This document shows positions 5,777 to 30,370 of a DNA stretch of 36,224 nucleotides, piece by piece. The position numbers were made by a program, and so were the translations under genes. Under the pieces are notes generated by a model, which saw only the letters and a program-made list of their open reading frames with translations, was not told the DNA's origin and made no database searches. Origin of the DNA: a virus; the IMG/VR virus record IMGVR_UViG_3300046740_000258, positions 1 to 36,224 of that record. One strand, 5' to 3'. How positions within the stretch are numbered: the first letter of the stretch is position 1; each line of letters begins with the position of its first letter.

Positions 5777-5992
5777 ATGGCCACCGAGGCGCCGGATTGC
5801 CCCGAGTGTGGGGCTGGGTGCGGGACGCCCGTCAACAGCGAATGCGGCGTGGAGCGCGGACGCTGGCATGGTCCTGACGACGCGAACCTGAAGTGCCCAG
5901 CGTGCGGGACGGGTTGGGTAGGTGACGACATCGACGTAGCCGACGCCTGGCGAGCCTTCGTGGAGTACGAGCAAAGCCAGGTGGGCCGATGA
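5777..5992 (+). CDS. Restriction-alleviation/Lar-like zinc-ribbon protein
   Basis: A 71-residue protein with CPECGAGC, then a second pair CPACGTGW, and a C-terminal segment DIDVADAWRAFVEYEQ. The layout of two CxxC knuckles followed by an amphipathic 'AWxxF' helix resembles the small Lar-like zinc-ribbon proteins of phages. The similarity is in pattern only, so the role in restriction alleviation is a guess. It overlaps the next gene by ATGA. Confidence 0.5.
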   Translation: MATEAPDCPECGAGCGTPVNSECGVERGRWHGPDDANLKCPACGTGWVGDDIDVADAWRAFVEYEQSQVGR

Positions 5993-6153
5993 AGCCGACG
6001 GGTATGGTCCGGATGACGGTTCGCCTGCCGGACTTGATCCGCGACCACATCAAGAACCGGGCGCGCGTGCTCGGCATCGACCCCGGCACGCTCATCATGC
6101 GGGCGGTCTGCCGCGCCACCGACAAGGCCCTTAAGCGCGAGCTCGGCTCATGA
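5989..6153 (+). CDS. Ribbon-helix-helix DNA-binding protein
   Basis: A 54-residue protein. VRMTVRLPDLIRDHIKNRARVLGIDPGTLIMRAVCRA has the Arc/CopG/MetJ-type arrangement: one beta strand with alternating polar and hydrophobic residues (MVRMTVRLP), helix A (DLIRDHIKNRARVLG), a turn, then helix B (GTLIMRAVCRATDKAL). Such proteins dimerise and bind repeated operator half-sites. It is a candidate binder for the palindromes at 5059-5151, 12802-12821 or 15650-15681 (inference). It overlaps both neighbours by ATGA. Confidence 0.65.
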   Translation: MKPTGMVRMTVRLPDLIRDHIKNRARVLGIDPGTLIMRAVCRATDKALKRELGS

Positions 6154-6326
6154 CCTTTCGGTGCGCGTGGATGCCCTGCCGTCGCGTAGCTCCCAAGCCC
6201 TCCCCGGGCTGGCGGTACTGGTTCGACGAGGTGGACCAGGAGGAGTGCGGGGTGTGCGCGGAGCATGACCTTCGCTCGAGCAACCAAGTCGAGATGTTCA
6301 TCAGCCCCCGTGGGGTCGCCCTGTAG
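6150..6326 (+). CDS. Small Cys-containing protein
   Basis: A 58-residue protein starting MTFRCAWMPCRRVAPKPSPGWRYWFDE and ending with a CGVCAEHD zinc-type knuckle and a short beta segment (VEMFISPRGVAL). The two Cys pairs probably bind one zinc ion. It overlaps the preceding gene by ATGA; the replication gene starts 2 bases after its stop. Confidence 0.55.
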   Translation: MTFRCAWMPCRRVAPKPSPGWRYWFDEVDQEECGVCAEHDLRSSNQVEMFISPRGVAL

Positions 6327-6328
6327 TC

Positions 6329-6985
6329 GTGTTGTGCCCCAGGTGCCAACGGAAAACGACCGTGGTTAAGACCGAAGATCATAGCTCGGGGGCCAAACTC
6401 AGATTGCGCCGCTGCGAGGCCGATGGGCGCTTCTGGACGAGGACGAGTGAAAAGGTCGACAGATGGTTGCCGGCAACGGCAACTGACGTTGCCCACAACG
6501 GCGATCTAACGGCGATTGCCGTTGCCCAGCAGTTGGGGGGAAAGGGGGGTTCTGCTCTGGGATTGATCCCCCTTCCGGATTCAGACCAGAAGGCTTCTTC
6601 GAAGCCTCAGACGCGGGCGCGTAGAGGCCGTCCCGGCGAGGATTACCCCGCGGACTTCGAAGCTATCTGGACAGGTTGCAAGCCCCGCAAGGGGAATAAA
6701 TCACCCGCATTTAAAGCGTGGGTGAAATTCAAGCCCGACCCGATTTTCACCGTCGAGCGTTACCAGCTCCGGATGCGCACCGATTCGTGGCAACGGGGGT
6801 TCATGCAGAACCTCTCGACTTGGCTCAACGACAAGGGGTGGGAGACCGAGCCGGACCCCTCTGAGTTCGCCACCAGGAAGGCCGAGGTCAGGCCGGCTAC
6901 CAGCTTCGCCGTACGCGCCGAGCAGGAGCGCGAAGACCGGCATCTCGACCGAATGGCCAGCCTTGCCTTTGGAGACGACGAATGA
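6329..6985 (+). CDS. Replication initiation protein (DnaT/O-like C-terminal domain)
   Basis: A 218-residue protein from GTG 6329. Residues 105-175 match the C-terminal domain of phage replisome organisers: DFEAIWTG...PRKGNKSPAFKAWVKFKPDP, then the helix before FMQNLSTWLNDKGWE, equivalent to the family pattern of 'FIPHPATWLN..RWED'. This domain recruits the host helicase or loader. The N terminus (CPRC ... LRLRRCEADGRFWT) resembles the NrdR zinc ribbon, but the fourth ligand is Asp instead of Cys. The middle (about 45-75) is a low-complexity linker encoded by an iteron-like repeat cluster at 6466-6526, the same architecture as lambda O with its internal origin. It ends by ATGA overlap with the next gene. 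Confidence 0.7.
   Translation: MLCPRCQRKTTVVKTEDHSSGAKLRLRRCEADGRFWTRTSEKVDRWLPATATDVAHNGDLTAIAVAQQLGGKGGSALGLIPLPDSDQKASSKPQTRARRGRPGEDYPADFEAIWTGCKPRKGNKSPAFKAWVKFKPDPIFTVERYQLRMRTDSWQRGFMQNLSTWLNDKGWETEPDPSEFATRKAEVRPATSFAVRAEQEREDRHLDRMASLAFGDDE
6466..6526. repeat. Iteron-like cluster inside the replication gene (origin candidate)
   Basis: Within 61 bases there are GTTGCC at 6466, 6488 and 6521; its complement GGCAAC at 6472 and 6478; AACGGC direct at 6475, 6497 and 6508; and GCCGTT inverted at 6518. The first two units form the perfect palindrome GTTGCCGGCAAC (6466-6477). AACGGCGAT occurs twice, 11 bp apart (6497, 6508). Clustered short repeats inside an initiator gene are typical of lambda-type origins. 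G-runs and the inverted repeat GGCTTC-TTC-GAAGCC (6592-6606) follow. Confidence 0.6.
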
Positions 6986-7521
6986 ACGAGACAGCGGCGA
7001 AGCAACTGATCCAGCGGTACGGCCGAAGCTACTACTTCGACCGCACGGCCGAGGGCTGGTTCGAGGCCAATTCGGACGCTCGGAGGCGAGGACAGGCCGA
7101 TGGCACCATCGACGCCCGGGCTGTTGGGGGAACCACGGTCCCCATCGCGAAGGGGCGAGAGTTGGCGTCCATCATGCTCGACAACGTGCGGGAGGCCCGG
7201 GACGATCTCCAGGCCACCGCGGCCCGCCTCAAGCGCGCCCGCCTCGATGGCCTCCTGAACAAGAGCGAATTCGAGGGGCTGGACAAGAAGCTACAGGAGG
7301 CGTGGGTGAAGGCCGCGATCGTCGTCCGCGGGGACTATCAGCAGGCCGTGGCCGAGCTCGCGCACTGGCAGCGGTATGCCGAAGAGGCAAGCGCCGGCAC
7401 GCTCCCCACGCTCAAGACTTCGGCTGGGGGTGGGACGGAGTTGCTCAAGGCGCTCGCCGAGATGAAGGCATATCCGCCCGATCCGCGTCTTCCGCCCGAG
7501 CGCGACGAGGAGGTGGCCTGA
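6982..7521 (+). CDS. Hypothetical helical protein
   Basis: A 179-residue protein. Residues 62-130 form a long charged helix (LDNVREARDDLQATAARLKRARLDGLLNKSEFEGLDKKLQEAW), likely a coiled coil. The N terminus has aromatic and acidic residues (YGRSYYFDRTAEGWFEAN). No family recognised. It is coupled to the replication gene by ATGA and to the next gene by TGATG, so a role in replication or DNA handling is possible but unproven. Confidence 0.65.
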   Translation: MNETAAKQLIQRYGRSYYFDRTAEGWFEANSDARRRGQADGTIDARAVGGTTVPIAKGRELASIMLDNVREARDDLQATAARLKRARLDGLLNKSEFEGLDKKLQEAWVKAAIVVRGDYQQAVAELAHWQRYAEEASAGTLPTLKTSAGGGTELLKALAEMKAYPPDPRLPPERDEEVA

Positions 7522-7982
7522 TGCCCATGGGAGCCGAGAACCAGGCCGCCCGGGTCTTCCGCCTCAAGAACCAGGGCCGGTGTGTCCGCTGCGCCGAGAA
7601 GCTGGGGGAGTACGTTGGCCGGTATTTCTCTTGCCAGTCCTGTCGCAACGATGACGCCGCCAGGCTGAACCGCCGGCGCCATGCCGCGAAGGCCGAGGGG
7701 GTTCTATGCAGCTTCGAGGGCTGCACCAAGCTCCCCCGGTCCAAGGGCATGTGCTCCGGGCACTACAACCAGCAACGCATTGGGAAGCCCCTGGAGCGCT
7801 TCCTGACCAAGAGCGAGGCCGCGCACCTCGGGAACCTCAAACGCATCGCAGGGCTCGAACGGGAGCGTCTGGAGCCCACTACAACGCTGCCCCGGTGTCG
7901 CTGTGGGCTACTCCTCCCCTGCAACAACTGCATCGGTGGAATCGACACGTTCGCGGAGATTCGGCGAGGTGTCGAATGGTGA
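7521..7982 (+). CDS. Zinc-binding protein with CxxHY motif
   Basis: A 153-residue protein with three Cys clusters: CVRCAEKL...CQSC (about 17-40), CSFEGCTKLPRSKGMCSGHYNQ (about 62-85) and CRCGLLLPCNNC near the C terminus. The middle pattern, C-x4-C-x8-C-x2-HY, is a recurring zinc knuckle in phage and actinobacterial proteins with no fixed function. Between the clusters lie Arg-rich helices, so nucleic-acid binding is plausible. The start follows by TGATG overlap. Confidence 0.65.
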   Translation: MPMGAENQAARVFRLKNQGRCVRCAEKLGEYVGRYFSCQSCRNDDAARLNRRRHAAKAEGVLCSFEGCTKLPRSKGMCSGHYNQQRIGKPLERFLTKSEAAHLGNLKRIAGLERERLEPTTTLPRCRCGLLLPCNNCIGGIDTFAEIRRGVEW

Positions 7983-8304: not shown

Positions 8305-8693
8305 GCCTTCGCCGGTCCTATATCCGCCGAAAGTCCCCCCGCAGAATCTCCAAGCAAACCCCCGAGGAGAAGGCGTACCAGGAGTGGATCCACGAGCAGG
8401 AATGCGTGGGGGTCCGCAGCTTCTCCACGGTGGAGTACGGCCGCCGGCAGACCTCCCACGTATGCCAGGGACGGATAGAGCAGAGCCACGACCGAAACAT
8501 GACGGGGATGGGCTTGAAGGCGCCCGAGCGAGACTCAGTGCCGATGTGCTCGGAGCTGCATCGGCAGTGGACGGACCACTCGGGGCTTTTCTCGCAGTGG
8601 GAGAAACCGTATCGGAGGCTTTGGATGCGGGAAAGAATTCGAGAAGCGAACGACGCGTTCGATGCGGGGCATCCGAGGGAGGCGACAGCATGA
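8301..8693 (+). CDS. HNH-like (DUF968-type) protein
   Basis: A 130-residue protein from GTG 8301. CQGRIEQSHDRNMTGMGLKAPERDSVPMC followed by LHRQWTDHSG fits the phage family with consensus C.....EaaHv...GmG.Ka.D...vPLC..hH...H, a diverged HNH/beta-beta-alpha zinc nuclease fold. Putative metal or catalytic residues are H63, C83, H87 and H93. Relatives lie in phage replication/recombination regions and may process branched DNA. The N terminus is basic. It overlaps the next gene by ATGA. Confidence 0.65.
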   Translation: MSLRRSYIRRKSPRRISKQTPEEKAYQEWIHEQECVGVRSFSTVEYGRRQTSHVCQGRIEQSHDRNMTGMGLKAPERDSVPMCSELHRQWTDHSGLFSQWEKPYRRLWMRERIREANDAFDAGHPREATA

Positions 8694-8905
8694 GCAAACA
8701 CAATCTGGTCCAGGTCGAGGCAGTCGGGGAGTTTGTCGAGGTGCGCTGCTACATGGACGACGAGATGAAGTACAAGTGCGAGTTCACTCGCGAGCAAGCG
8801 CTCGCGCTGGCGTCCGCTCTGCGGGAAGCTGCCGAAGGCAGCGTGGGAAAGGGCAAGGCCCAGATTCAGAATCTCTCGTCAGGCACAGCCAAAGGAGAGC
8901 CATGA
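8690..8905 (+). CDS. Small hypothetical protein
   Basis: A 71-residue protein: a beta-rich first half (VQVEAVGEFVEVRCYMDDEMKYKCEFTREQ), then a helix (ALALASALREAAEGS) and a polar tail. The pattern of a beta hairpin followed by a helix starting 'EQALALASALREA' recurs in small phage proteins, but I cannot assign a function. It is coupled at both ends by ATGA. Confidence 0.6.
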   Translation: MSKHNLVQVEAVGEFVEVRCYMDDEMKYKCEFTREQALALASALREAAEGSVGKGKAQIQNLSSGTAKGEP

Positions 8906-9933
8906 GCGACGAGAAGCGACTCGAGGATTCCGTGGCCTGGCGCAAGTTCTACGAGGAGCGCGCCCGGCGCATCGCCACGGCAAAGGACCTGGACACGACC
9001 CGCGCCGACCTCACCGCCGCCCGTACTCGGGTAGCTGAGTTGGAGGGGGGAAATGCTCGGCTTGTTGCGCTGGGCGTGGCGGGCGCCGACAACTACGGGC
9101 AAGCGATTGTCGCGTTAGCCGATGCTCTGCATGAGCGCGACGCCTACAAGCGAGCCAAGGAAGAGAATGACGAGCGGTTTATGACTGAGCGAGACCAGGC
9201 AAGGGCCGAGGTCGCCGCTCTCCGAGAGACGCTGGGATGGGCTGCCAACCTCGCCGACCCGCTCTACTCGTTCGGCGTTAGCGAACGGCTGGCACTAGGC
9301 CGCAAGGCCCGGGAGGTGCTCGGCCTGCCGGCGCTCGACGCCTCCCCCCAGGCTGACCGGCCCCGTTTCGTCGACCCAGGGCGTGGACCGAGACAAGCGG
9401 TCGTAGCCTCCCCCCAGGCTGCTCCCCCGGGGACAACGCGCGTATTTGACGGCAAGAACTGGAGAGAGACTCCTGCGTGTGCCGAGTGCGGGTTAGACAC
9501 GGTTACCTATACCCTTGTGAGCGCGGGCAAAACAGAAACGGTAGTAGCTTGCCCGGACTGTGGGCCGGCTACCCCCGTACAGGGAGCGCCCCATGCCTGC
9601 CGCCTGTCCTGCGTAGAGCCTGGACACGATGAGTGGGTGGCAGCCGTACAGGGAGCGCCACCCGAGGTCATCCCCGCAATCAACGGCCCATGGATTCCCG
9701 GGGCAGCGCCAGCCGATGGGCCGACGTGCGCGGCGTGGTGCGGGCACGAAGTCGGGACGGTTTGGCCTGTCGTCGATTCGTTCCAGCGATGGAGCACGGT
9801 CACACACTCGTTTTGCTCTGCCGACTGCCGCGACGCGGGCCGCCCCCTCCACCCCGCCCCAGCCGTACCAGAGCCGGTACGGGAGCTGGTTCCATACCCT
9901 GCCACACCTGCCGCAGAGGAGAAGAAGACGTGA
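8902..9933 (+). CDS. Coiled-coil protein with Cys-rich C terminus
   Basis: A 343-residue protein. Residues 1-140 form a long coiled coil (SVAWRKFYEERARRIATAKD ... DQARAEVAALRETLGW). Then comes a region with LALGRKAREVLGLP, a repeated Pro/Ala linker containing ASPQA twice, and a C-terminal half with several Cys/His groups (CAECG, CPDCG, CRLSC, CAAWCGH, CSADC) ending in a Pro/Val/Glu tail. Two pairs of exact 16-base DNA repeats lie inside it (9340/9406 and 9575/9644), encoding ASPQA and VQGAP. It looks modular and rapidly changing. No function can be assigned. Confidence 0.6.
   Translation: MSDEKRLEDSVAWRKFYEERARRIATAKDLDTTRADLTAARTRVAELEGGNARLVALGVAGADNYGQAIVALADALHERDAYKRAKEENDERFMTERDQARAEVAALRETLGWAANLADPLYSFGVSERLALGRKAREVLGLPALDASPQADRPRFVDPGRGPRQAVVASPQAAPPGTTRVFDGKNWRETPACAECGLDTVTYTLVSAGKTETVVACPDCGPATPVQGAPHACRLSCVEPGHDEWVAAVQGAPPEVIPAINGPWIPGAAPADGPTCAAWCGHEVGTVWPVVDSFQRWSTVTHSFCSADCRDAGRPLHPAPAVPEPVRELVPYPATPAAEEKKT
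9340..9421 (+). repeat. 16-base direct repeat, first pair
   Basis: GCCTCCCCCCAGGCTG occurs at 9340-9355 and 9406-9421, 66 bases apart and in the same frame, encoding ASPQA both times. Confidence 0.8.
9575..9659 (+). repeat. 16-base direct repeat, second pair
   Basis: CCGTACAGGGAGCGCC occurs at 9575-9590 and 9644-9659, 69 bases apart and in frame, encoding VQGAP both times. A related inverted form, CCGTACcagagccGGTACGGGAGC, lies near 9872. Confidence 0.8.
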
Positions 9934-10205: not shown

Positions 10206-10492
10206 CGACGCTGGAAGAGGAACTGCTCGACGCCGCCAAGGACGCCGAAGCATGGGGCACCGACACGATAGCGGGCCGGCAGTACCACGCCCGAGCCGCC
10301 CGTCTCCGTGCCAGGGCAGCATGGATTCGAGCGCGCATCGAGTTTCTGCGCGGCATCACCGACGACAGGATGCGCGCATGGAGGCAGCAAGTACTTGGCG
10401 AATGGGAAGTCTTCGCCGGTCCAAACATAGACCCACTCGGTGACCTCGCCGGTCCCGACCTCGGCCCTACTCGTAGAGACGGTGGGACATGA
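10202..10492 (+). CDS. Hypothetical helical protein
   Basis: A 96-residue protein with long Arg/Ala-rich helices (residues 3-60) and a Gly/Pro/Asp tail. The tail is encoded by the 17-base repeat that also ends the next gene. No family recognised. It overlaps both neighbours by ATGA. Confidence 0.55.
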   Translation: MTTLEEELLDAAKDAEAWGTDTIAGRQYHARAARLRARAAWIRARIEFLRGITDDRMRAWRQQVLGEWEVFAGPNIDPLGDLAGPDLGPTRRDGGT

Positions 10493-10606
10493 GCAAGCCG
10501 TGCGGCTTCTGCAAGGGCGACAACGCCATCCACTGCATGGGCGGCGGATTGTGGGTCTGCTTTCGTTGTTGGTTGCGCGCGTTGTTGCGCGGCCCTACTC
10601 GTAGAG
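10462..10606 (+). repeat. 17-base repeat before two consecutive starts
   Basis: CGGCCCTACTCGTAGAG occurs at 10462-10478 and 10590-10606. Each copy encodes GPTRR near a C terminus and lies about 11 bases before the ATG of the following gene, so the repeat may act as a duplicated gene-junction and ribosome-binding segment. Confidence 0.75.
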
Positions 10607-10620
10607 GAGAGCCTACATGA
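10489..10620 (+). CDS. Very small zinc-knuckle protein
   Basis: A 43-residue protein: CGFCKGDNAIHC ... WVCFRCW, then a basic tail ending GPTRRGEPT. Two CxxC pairs plus His can bind one zinc ion. Translation is coupled by ATGA at both ends. No family name. Confidence 0.5.
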   Translation: MSKPCGFCKGDNAIHCMGGGLWVCFRCWLRALLRGPTRRGEPT

Positions 10621-11351
10621 GCCGGTACCTTACCCAGCCTACACCTGCCCGCAGAACGGAGGAGACGGTGGCCGCGCTGTTCGTCGAGAAGGGTGGCGCG
10701 TACTACGGGTTACCCAACGTCGACCCGTGGGACGAAGAACGGGACGCAAGAAAATACGCTGGACCGTGGCCAGTGGTGGCACATCCGCCGTGTGAGAGGT
10801 GGGGACGGAGCGCGACGAAGGGCGGGCGCCGACTCGGGGACGATGACGCTTGCTTTCAGGCCGCGCTATCCGCGCTATCCAGGTTTGGGGGAGTGCTCGA
10901 ACACCCGGCAGACTCAAGGGCGTGGGACGCGTTCGGCTTGAGGAAGCCGGTAAGGTCCGGAGGTTGGTGTCGCGTTGGGTATCGCGATCTCTGGGCGTGT
11001 TGCGTGGAACAGGGGCACTATGGGCACCGCGCGCGAAAGGCGACGTGGCTGCTGGCGAGGGCGCCCATGGACGGGATGGGGCTTCCGCTCCTTCCTGAGT
11101 TGATTTGGGGCCGAGCTCCGTTTGAACGAACGCGACGCATGCGGGAGGCGACAACCGAAGCCGAACGGCGACGCGCCCGCCGCACCGGCGTCGTCCAGAA
11201 CATGTCGAAGAAGCAGCGCCGCGCTACCCCACCCGCCTTTCGTGACCTCCTCCTCTCAATCGCCCGCTCTGCTCTGCGGGAAGGCGCTCCTGCGCCGGGT
11301 GCAGGGCAAGGCCCAGATGCTGATCCGAACCCCGTCGGCGGCAAGCTATGA
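10617..11351 (+). CDS. Conserved phage protein with HPPC and GGVLEHP motifs
   Basis: A 244-residue protein. Motifs seen are ALFVEKGGAYYGLPNVDPWDEERDAR (21-45), VVAHPPCERWGR (53-64), GGVLEHPADSRAW (91-103) and a C-terminal YGHRARKATWLL (135-146). I recognise this set from a phage family usually called hypothetical. The order of a Pro-Cys loop then a Glu-containing GVLEHP strand recalls motifs IV (PC) and VI (ENV) of cytosine-5 DNA methyltransferases, so a diverged nucleic-acid-modifying role is possible (inference), but the SAM-binding FxGxG motif is not obvious. The C-terminal 90 residues are Arg-rich and probably disordered. Confidence 0.65.
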   Translation: MSRYLTQPTPARRTEETVAALFVEKGGAYYGLPNVDPWDEERDARKYAGPWPVVAHPPCERWGRSATKGGRRLGDDDACFQAALSALSRFGGVLEHPADSRAWDAFGLRKPVRSGGWCRVGYRDLWACCVEQGHYGHRARKATWLLARAPMDGMGLPLLPELIWGRAPFERTRRMREATTEAERRRARRTGVVQNMSKKQRRATPPAFRDLLLSIARSALREGAPAPGAGQGPDADPNPVGGKL

Positions 11352-13992: not shown

Positions 13993-15412
13993 GGCGCACG
14001 ACAAGCGCCTAGAGAAGCGTCTCCTGGGCGAACTGCAGCGCCGCACCAAGCTCCCATGGGACCCTCGGAGCATCCTCGACCCCCAGCAGCTCGCCGTTCA
14101 CGACGACCCGACCTCCGATCGGGTGCTTGAGGGCACCCGCCAGCTCGGCAAGTCCTGGCTAGCCGCTGTCGAGCACGTCGACGTGGGGCTCCGCATCCCC
14201 GGCTCCGAATCCGCCTTCATCGACTTCGACAAGGAGCACGCCGAGAAGATCGTGCTTCGCGACTTCGAAACCCTGCTCGAGAAGTACGACATCCCCGCCC
14301 ATCTAGTCGAAGACCGGCTCGAGTTCGACAACGGGAGCATCGCCTACATCTTCTCCGGCCGCCCCTCAGAGGTGAAGAAGCTGCAGGGGCTCAAGCTGGC
14401 TCTGCTGACCTGCGACGAGTCGAACGACGCGGAAGCCCTCGAGGAGATCTTCCGCATGGTCCGCCCCGCCCTCATGCGTTACCGGGGGCGCATCCTGGCC
14501 ATGGGCATCCCAGGCCGGGTCTCGGGGATCGGCTTCTGGTGGGAGATCACCCACGGCAAGCGGGCTGCAGCCTTCGGCCAGCACCGCGGCCACATGCGTG
14601 ACAACCCTCACTTACCCCCCGATGCCATCGCGGAGCAGCGCGCCAAGGCCATGGAGGAGCTTGGGGCCGAGTCTCCCGACTTCATCCGCCACTGGGATGG
14701 GCTCTGGCCCGCCCTGGACAACGCCCTGCGCGTCTTTCGCTACTTCCCTGACGTCAACGGCTTCGATGGGGACGCACCGCCCTGTAATCGCTATGCGCTT
14801 GGCCTGGACCCCGGTGGAGTCAGGGACTCGGAAGCCGCGGTCATGCTCGGCCACAACCCCGGGAAGGGTGAAGCATGGGTGGTCGACGAGGACGACTCGG
14901 GCAAGGGGCGCGGAGGAGACTGGCAGGACACCGAGGTTAGGCTCGACCCCATGATCGCCCGGTGGAACCCCCTCGACCTGTTCTATGACTACGGCTCGGC
15001 CAAGAAGGCCGCGAATCTGGTCATCGAGGGCGACCGAAACGTCCGCCTCGAGCCCGTGCCGATGAAGGATCTCGACATCGAGATCCCGCGGGTCAACAAG
15101 CTCTTCGCCCGCAAGGCCCTGTGGGTCAAGCGGGGGTCCAAGCTTGAGCAAGACCTCCTGTATTTGACGTGGGACGCCAAGGCCCGGGCCGTGGGCAGGA
15201 ACAAATACGCCTCGACCTGGAAACAAAACCTCTGTGACGCGTTAAGAGCTGCACTATGGGCGGTCGAAGGCTACGCCAACCCCCCCGAGGACGAGCTATC
15301 GCCCCGGGAGAAGCGCCAGCGCGAGATCAGGGCCATGGTCGCCTCAGCCAGTGAGGATGATTACGGAAAACTCGTCGACTCGGGGGTAAACAATGCGTCA
15401 GATCCTTGGTAG
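13982..15412 (+). CDS. terL: Terminase large subunit
   Basis: A 476-residue DNA-packaging motor ATPase and nuclease. The N-terminal ATPase shows Walker A GTRQLGKSW (51-59) and Walker B LALLTCDE (139-146, with the catalytic Glu). The C-terminal RNase-H-like nuclease has acidic residues at D276 (YALGLDPGG) and D336 (LFYDYGS), and a final Asp-containing helix (NLCDALRAALWAVEG). The start is GTG 13982, overlapping the upstream gene by 11 bases. Length and motif order are normal for the family. Late position and neighbours support a headful-type packaging enzyme, but the type cannot be told from sequence. Confidence 0.93.
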   Translation: MGNRAHDKRLEKRLLGELQRRTKLPWDPRSILDPQQLAVHDDPTSDRVLEGTRQLGKSWLAAVEHVDVGLRIPGSESAFIDFDKEHAEKIVLRDFETLLEKYDIPAHLVEDRLEFDNGSIAYIFSGRPSEVKKLQGLKLALLTCDESNDAEALEEIFRMVRPALMRYRGRILAMGIPGRVSGIGFWWEITHGKRAAAFGQHRGHMRDNPHLPPDAIAEQRAKAMEELGAESPDFIRHWDGLWPALDNALRVFRYFPDVNGFDGDAPPCNRYALGLDPGGVRDSEAAVMLGHNPGKGEAWVVDEDDSGKGRGGDWQDTEVRLDPMIARWNPLDLFYDYGSAKKAANLVIEGDRNVRLEPVPMKDLDIEIPRVNKLFARKALWVKRGSKLEQDLLYLTWDAKARAVGRNKYASTWKQNLCDALRAALWAVEGYANPPEDELSPREKRQREIRAMVASASEDDYGKLVDSGVNNASDPW

Positions 15413-28631: not shown

Positions 28632-30370
28632 GCGCCCCAGGATACGATGACGAGCTCGCCAGGGCCCTTGCAGAGGGCGGCCAGCCCATGGGCGATCCCA
28701 TGGAGCTGGTAGGGGGGCAGGACGCGCCCCCGCCGGCTCCGATGGCGATGCCTGACGCCTCCCTGCCCTCCGGACTGGCGGGGGAGCCCCCGCCCGAGGC
28801 GATGCCACAGGCTCCGACGCAGGGCGCTGCACAGGCCCCGCTTGCCCCCGTCATCCCCCTGGTCCCCCAGCCCACGGCCGCCCCCCCGGGGATGTCGGTA
28901 GTCAAAGGCTCCCGAACGGTCGTCACCCCGGTTTTCCCTGGCGAGATGCAGCAGGGCTATGAAGCCGGTCAGGCCGCCATCGCGGGAGAGAGAAAGCTCG
29001 CCGGCGATCAGGCGAAGACCGCCGAGGACGAAGCCCAGATCAACAGGGAGCTTGCCGAGAAGACCGACGAGGCGACGCGGCAGGCGAACGCCGAATATCA
29101 GGCCGAGCAGCTTTTCCAACAGGAGCAAAAAGAAGCTCGCCTGAATAGGTATATGTCCGACCTCGACGCCCTCAAGGCCGACAAGGGGCCCGGCGGCTTC
29201 CGGGACTGGGAGGGCGGCAGGAAGGCGCGCGGGTACCTCTCGATCGCGCTCGGTGGCCTCGCCCGGGGCAATACCGGGGGCGTGAATGTCGCCCTCCAGC
29301 GGATCGACCAGCAGATAGCGAACGACCAGAAGCAGCATGCCGCGGAGATCGAGAATCGGATCAAGGCAATCGAACTCACGCACGGCTTCAACAAGGACCT
29401 CGATGCCCAGGGGCAAGCCGCGCTCGACAAGCTCGCCGTCCGAAAACAGCTCATCTACCAGGACTTGAACAAGCACGCGGCGGCTCAACTCGCCGCGCTC
29501 GGCATCCCGAAGGCACAGCAGGCCGGGACCCTCGCACAGCTCGGCTTCGATGCGAAGGCCGCCAAGGCCGAGCAGGAATTCGGCAAAGAGCACGAGATCA
29601 AGCTCACCGATACGATGCAGGTACGCCCGGGTAAGGGCGGAGGCTCGGGCACGCCGCGAGATGCCCTTTCCAAGCTGGCGGCATTCGCGCAGAAGAACCA
29701 AGGCCCCGAAAATGACCCGACGGTCACGGCCTTCGCGGAGCATCTCTATCCGGGCATGAAACCCGCGCAGCTTCAAGGGCTCGTCACCTCGGTCAGGAAG
29801 TCCGCCCAGGATGCCGCCGCGGCGAAGGGAAGTCAGATTCCGACCAACTTCGATTCCCAGGGCGTTCATTACGTCGTCAACCCCAGCCAGACGACGGTAC
29901 GCGGGCTCACGGCCGCGCGCGCACAACTCGGCCTCATCGAGGGTGCAATCGCGAACGGGGATGAAGCGCTCGCGATGGTCGAGAAAGGCGCTCCGACGAA
30001 TTTCGGCGTGATCAAGGGCGCCATCGGCATCGGCAATGAAAAGAGCAACACGGCGCGTGCAGAAGCCAATGCCAAGGTGGCGTCGCTTCGAAACGCAGCG
30101 GCCTCGGCACTCAAGGAATCGATGGGCGTCGAGGCGGGGAAGGAACGCGCCGAAGCCATCTTTCCAGACCTTCCGCATACCGATGCCGGAATGCCGCAGT
30201 GGCGCGCGAAGGTCAAGGCCGGGCTCGACACGATGAAGGTGCTGAAGCGAGCGGCCCTGAATGCGGCGGGGGCTACTCCGGCGCCGGCCGGAGCCGTCGG
30301 GAAGCCGGGCGGCCGCCCGGATCCGATCGAGACCGCGATCGATGCCCTCGCAGAAAAGAATGGGCTCTGA
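28628..30370 (+). CDS. Internal virion (DNA-ejection) protein
   Basis: A 580-residue protein. A Pro/Ala-rich N terminus (1-90) is followed by a very long Ala/Glu/Gln coiled coil (100-185), a segment RGYLSIALGGLARGNTGGVNVALQRIDQQIANDQKQ typical of podovirus internal proteins, and further helices. Such proteins lie in the capsid and form a channel through the cell wall at infection. No lytic transglycosylase motif is seen. It overlaps the previous gene by ATGA. Confidence 0.6.
   Translation: MSAPGYDDELARALAEGGQPMGDPMELVGGQDAPPPAPMAMPDASLPSGLAGEPPPEAMPQAPTQGAAQAPLAPVIPLVPQPTAAPPGMSVVKGSRTVVTPVFPGEMQQGYEAGQAAIAGERKLAGDQAKTAEDEAQINRELAEKTDEATRQANAEYQAEQLFQQEQKEARLNRYMSDLDALKADKGPGGFRDWEGGRKARGYLSIALGGLARGNTGGVNVALQRIDQQIANDQKQHAAEIENRIKAIELTHGFNKDLDAQGQAALDKLAVRKQLIYQDLNKHAAAQLAALGIPKAQQAGTLAQLGFDAKAAKAEQEFGKEHEIKLTDTMQVRPGKGGGSGTPRDALSKLAAFAQKNQGPENDPTVTAFAEHLYPGMKPAQLQGLVTSVRKSAQDAAAAKGSQIPTNFDSQGVHYVVNPSQTTVRGLTAARAQLGLIEGAIANGDEALAMVEKGAPTNFGVIKGAIGIGNEKSNTARAEANAKVASLRNAAASALKESMGVEAGKERAEAIFPDLPHTDAGMPQWRAKVKAGLDTMKVLKRAALNAAGATPAPAGAVGKPGGRPDPIETAIDALAEKNGL

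Follow-up and report, generated by a model that had tools for sequence, protein, structure and literature searches.

The location of a replication origin within the gene of its own initiator is already known from phage lambda (PMC6022878, PMC7466680). There, ori-lambda consists of four 18-bp iterons with hyphenated symmetry inside gene O, and in the O protein a flexible linker joins the N-terminal DNA-binding part (PF04492) to the C-terminal part. In NrdR, a pair of Zn-ribbons occupies each 16-bp palindromic box, one ribbon per half, and the boxes of a pair usually lie 15-16 bp apart, at about three helix turns (PMC12051234, PMC9110341). The "primosomal" initiators of phrog_270 and phrog_9327 combine the same C-terminal domain as the protein described here with a repeat-bearing linker; however, the relatives examined have mostly winged-helix-like or other N-termini, whereas this protein appears to begin with a Zn-ribbon. 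It was found in IMGVR_UViG_3300046740_000258, a virus record of 36,224 bp with a GC content of ~65%, which was analysed over its full length (the window). From the sequence comparisons and the predicted structure, we consider it likely that a 61-bp repeat block in this gene is the iteron or operator part of an origin of the lambda-O type, which lies where the linker of the initiator is encoded and would be bound by the Zn-ribbon N-terminus of that protein.

The window encodes a RecT-family annealing protein, a tyrosine integrase, a terminase and a portal protein, and its source is therefore a tailed, probably temperate phage. None of the window genes tested was recognised as a helicase or helicase-loader gene. 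Close relatives were found neither through peptide patterns of the initiator (IMG/VR and GTDB genomes) nor through those of the terminase and of the gene that follows the initiator. A DNA similarity search against phages and plasmids gave nothing useful, and the initiator protein had no match (0) among plasmids. Other features of the window were recorded as well. Small Cys-rich proteins of the early region (5777-5992, 1638-1910 and 7521-7982) have weak zinc-ribbon, DnaJ-type zinc and HNH-like matches. Two 33-nt copies that are 79% alike (10462-10494 and 10590-10622) begin with CGGCCCTACTCGTAGAG and end with ACATGAGC; the second enters the ATG of the gene at 10617-11351 and the first finishes at another ATG. 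The pair might have arisen by duplication of a gene start or of a control site. The gene at 8662-9933, which has no recognised family, contains exact 16-nt direct repeats (9575-9590 and 9644-9659) and 25-nt direct repeats of 88% identity (9331-9355 and 9397-9421), both pairs being spaced 66-69 bp. ARAGORN reported a tRNA-Ala (GGC) at 14404-14501 (-), on the opposite strand within the terminase gene, which is likely a false positive.

The replication initiator gene (6329..6985, +) is an open reading frame with a GTG start that encodes 218 residues, comprising a probable Zn-ribbon, a linker predicted to be disordered and a helical C-terminal domain. The NrdR-like Zn-ribbon, a putative origin-binding domain, spans residues 1-45 (6329..6463, +) and has C3, C6 and C29, with D32 replacing the fourth Cys. 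Its first 37 residues match PF22811 weakly, at an E-value of 0.011 and 16.1 bits, below the cutoff of 27.2. AlphaFold2 prediction with 44 sequences gave a three-stranded N-terminus at high confidence, with three β-strands and a mean pLDDT per 10 residues of 78-88 over residues 1-40, followed by a disordered stretch at residues 46-79 (pLDDT < 50) and a helical C-terminal domain. The conserved helical C-terminal domain of the primosomal/initiator family covers residues 107-175 (6647..6853, +), with helices from H108 onward. Residues 69-202 match the replication initiation proteins of phrog_270 (E=5.7e-12), and the C-terminal part also matches phrog_9474 (3.4e-8) and the "primosomal" phrog_9327 (4.2e-7). 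Alignment revealed that the motif FW..YPRK ... TWLN..W of the phrog_270 proteins is present in this domain. The initial annotation had called the C-terminus DnaT-like, a label that we reject, as profile comparison (hhalign) against E. coli DnaT gave a probability of 0.4%; all that is shared with DnaT is the "primosomal" annotation of some relatives. Searches of the PDB by sequence and by the fold of the model returned nothing significant.

The repeat block, which we propose to be a set of initiator-binding sites, extends over 61 bp (6466..6526) and encodes residues 46-66, within the predicted disordered stretch, in keeping with the initial description of this segment as the coding sequence of a linker between the N- and C-terminal parts. 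All the units that had been counted there in mixed orientation were located. The five GTTGCC/GGCAAC units comprise GTTGCC at 6466, 6488 and 6521 and GGCAAC at 6472 and 6478, and the four AACGGC/GCCGTT units comprise AACGGC at 6475, 6497 and 6508 and GCCGTT at 6518. The perfect 12-bp palindrome GTTGCCGGCAAC (6466-6477) and the 11-bp-spaced direct repeat AACGGCGAT (6497..6516, with copies at 6497 and 6508) are likewise present. Moreover, the block contains three perfect 16-bp palindromes of 6-4-6 form, namely TTGCCG-gcaa-CGGCAA (6467..6482), GGCAAC-tgac-GTTGCC (6478..6493) and AACGGC-gatt-GCCGTT (6508..6523). The latter two are separated by 14 bp, with 30 bp from centre to centre.

As a score for such clusters, we took the number of 7-mers that are repeated, on the same or the opposite strand, inside a span of 70 nt. 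With 29, the block has the highest score of the 36-kb window (the runner-up, at 30276, scores 22), and this value was not attained in simulated first-order Markov windows (0/60, maximum 25). When the protein was recoded synonymously 40,000 times according to the codon usage of the phage, the block score was reached only once, and the same recoding test was significant for 0 of 13 other window genes. In addition, a run of rare codons coincides with the block (6458..6526, +; the stretch starts at 6458/6461), in which 9 of 22 codons are used at <10% for their amino acid; it is the densest among 6,924 windows in 16 phage genes. Given this rarity among recodings and the rare-codon maximum at the block, constraint appears to act here on the DNA rather than on the protein. 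The same measure detects the iterons of lambda: gene O, used as a positive control, scores 23 at nt 342-412 (annotated iterons at 348-432), a value reached by 0 of 2,000 recodings. These results bear on the explanation that the linker is a neutral stretch of low complexity, its repeats arising from slippage or from Ala/Thr/Val codon bias with no function in cis. The linker is indeed predicted to be disordered and is rich in Ala, Thr and Val, and several relatives have simple tandem repeats at this position; but simple slippage does not make inverted repeats, and the recoding result and the concentration of rare codons exactly at the block both speak against this explanation. With the control ORFs described below, which almost never contain such clusters, we regard a neutral linker as very unlikely.

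Iterative searches of phage DNA yielded a non-redundant set of 133 proteins that share the C-terminal domain; in 107 of these, at least 60 residues precede it. This sample was collected through motifs of the C-terminal domain and through neighbouring genes rather than through linker features, and should therefore be unbiased for linker repeats. A significant cluster (p<=0.01) was present in 75% of the 107 relatives; among 226 control ORFs, which came from the same loci and had similar lengths, the proportion was 0.9%. All significant clusters (80/80) lie 0-90 residues upstream of the C-terminal domain, where 36% would be expected from a uniform distribution; the median distance is 27 residues (5-95% range 9-60), and that of the window is about 52. 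The repeat units vary from phage to phage, so that of the conservation anticipated in relatives, the position holds and the repeat sequence does not. The sequences of a small family alignment (A2) were too diverse to serve as the basis of a pattern scan. Perfect hairpins are ~4 times denser in the linker zone of the family than elsewhere in the same genes, and the mixed orientation of the repeats in the window is thus not odd. The N-terminal domains of relatives with linker repeats include the DNA-binding domains PF04492 and HTH_36. In two of these relatives (L164 and L139), PF04492, the N-terminal domain of lambda O, was recognised (E=4e-22 and 6e-25, respectively) together with the same C-terminal domain and linker repeats. 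Separately, several loci (L169, L152, L163, L140 and similar ones) contain ORFs of ~130-160 residues that consist of the C-terminal domain alone, with no N-terminal DNA-binding domain.

Immediately 3' of the repeats the sequence is G-rich, with the tract GTTGGGGGGAAAGGGGGG (6532..6549, +); a similar tract occurs in the linker of L264, a relative that also has the Zn-ribbon. Between the repeats and the C-terminal domain lies a perfect 7-bp hairpin, AGGCTTC-ttc-GAAGCCT (6591..6607). Perfect hairpins are similarly placed in the linkers of L297 (overlapping L120), L176, L187 and L189, for example GAGGCT-GGCG/GA-GCCTC and AGACTC-TAAA-GAGTCT, and a hairpin at this position could be a shared origin element. 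The hairpin CATCATCnnnnGATGATG was observed right at the start of the C-terminal domain in three different phages (linkers of L203, L245 and L254). An AT-rich patch (6688..6747) with 47% GC ranks fifth among the lowest-GC 60-nt stretches of the window and is a possible unwinding element. It is the most AT-rich patch in the vicinity and lies ~160 bp 3' of the repeats rather than adjacent to them; the mean GC dip of the family lies at most 80 bp 3' of the repeats. GC skew, proposed as a check in the initial annotation, shows no switch near 6.5 kb.

The palindromes might alternatively be an autoregulatory operator or a cluster of regulatory hairpins, with a palindrome-bound protein repressing the operon or with transcript folding controlling expression. 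Palindromes are the targets of many phage repressors, and as a single strand the block folds better than its shuffles (z=-3.9), both of which speak for such a role. However, the block sits ~140 bp inside the gene, no promoter-like site was found in 5900-7200, and no other part of the phage has a cluster of this repeat unit. The linker position shared throughout the family is, moreover, that of the lambda origin. A purely regulatory role is accordingly quite unlikely, and the block is better read as part of an origin.

The Zn-ribbon was found in only two relatives, L065 and L264. Both also match PF22811 weakly (E=0.0012 and 0.069, respectively). A search with the Zn-ribbon alignment in 396 and 398 genomes returned only matches to the C-terminal domain, joined to other N-termini. 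The L264 gene lies directly upstream of a DnaB helicase gene. Exact 7-mer repeats are not significant in either relative, but the L264 linker has imperfect palindromic repeats, for which a mismatch-tolerant measure found 25 of 4000 recodings as strong gene-wide and 1 of 4000 in the linker, p-values that are post hoc since the measure was adopted after these repeats had been seen by eye. By the same measure the L065 linker has no repeat cluster, which is the main weakness of the reading that the Zn-ribbon binds the block. The block could instead be an origin bound by another host or phage protein, the Zn-ribbon serving, for example, in dimerisation or helicase contact. Such an arrangement would account for L065, as well as for the short family members that entirely lack an N-terminal DNA-binding domain, but repeat-bearing relatives include proteins with DNA-binding N-domains, and in L264 the Zn-ribbon and the linker repeats occur together. 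We judge binding by a different protein unlikely, and favour the Zn-ribbon as the putative binder of the block.

Comparison with NrdR suggests how such binding might occur, with clear differences. The three initiators with the Zn-ribbon share the weak match to PF22811, and the two 16-bp palindromes of the window that lie 30 bp apart recall the paired NrdR boxes. Several of the arginines by which NrdR contacts the DNA backbone appear, from an alignment made by hand, to be retained in the window protein (RLRR before C29), which seems to differ at two specificity positions. By contrast, the window protein lacks the ATP-cone, has one Cys changed to Asp and scores below the cutoff. The box sequence is also unrelated; NrdR boxes are AT-centred, and the sequence recognised here would therefore have to differ entirely. 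A literature search in which few subscription journals were covered turned up no Zn-ribbon phage initiator of such type.

With respect to lambda O, both systems have a cluster of hyphenated palindromes in the initiator gene and a flexible linker between the N-terminal DNA-binding part and the C-terminal part. The initial annotation, which had proposed the lambda O/ori arrangement, is strongly supported by position, through the linker repeats found across the family and the two relatives with PF04492, but not by the skew. It had also noted that the repeats and the DNA-binding domain look unlike those of lambda, and this is correct: the repeat sequence is unrelated, and PF04492 is absent, with the weak PF22811 match in its place. 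Furthermore, the layout of the window mixes direct and inverted repeats, its AT-rich patch is not adjacent to them, and no P-like partner is recognisable in the window. Profile comparison of the window initiator with lambda O found no relationship. The lambda-O-like reading is nevertheless probably right in kind.

Altogether, we propose that the N-terminal Zn-ribbon would bind the 16-bp palindromes, probably in pairs with one ribbon per half-site, as in NrdR. Wrapping or distortion of the DNA by the bound protein may then open a weaker region nearby, and recruitment of the host primosome or helicase would fall to the C-terminal domain. More tentatively, and with somewhat less than even confidence, the protein might represent a distinct class of initiator, in which an NrdR-like Zn-ribbon takes the place of the winged helix. 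Its targets would be 16-bp palindromes, paired at a distance of about three helical turns within the linker-coding sequence of the initiator itself. The arrangement itself is that of lambda; the new part is the Zn-ribbon N-terminus as a putative origin binder, which points to a Zn-ribbon performing the job of a winged helix. The survey of relatives suggests that an internal origin is the norm in this initiator family, and that the lambda plan is the rule across a large and diverse group of phage initiators, in which the position is kept while the repeat sequence and the DNA-binding domain change freely. The conserved linker position would thereby offer a simple means of predicting origins in uncultured phages.
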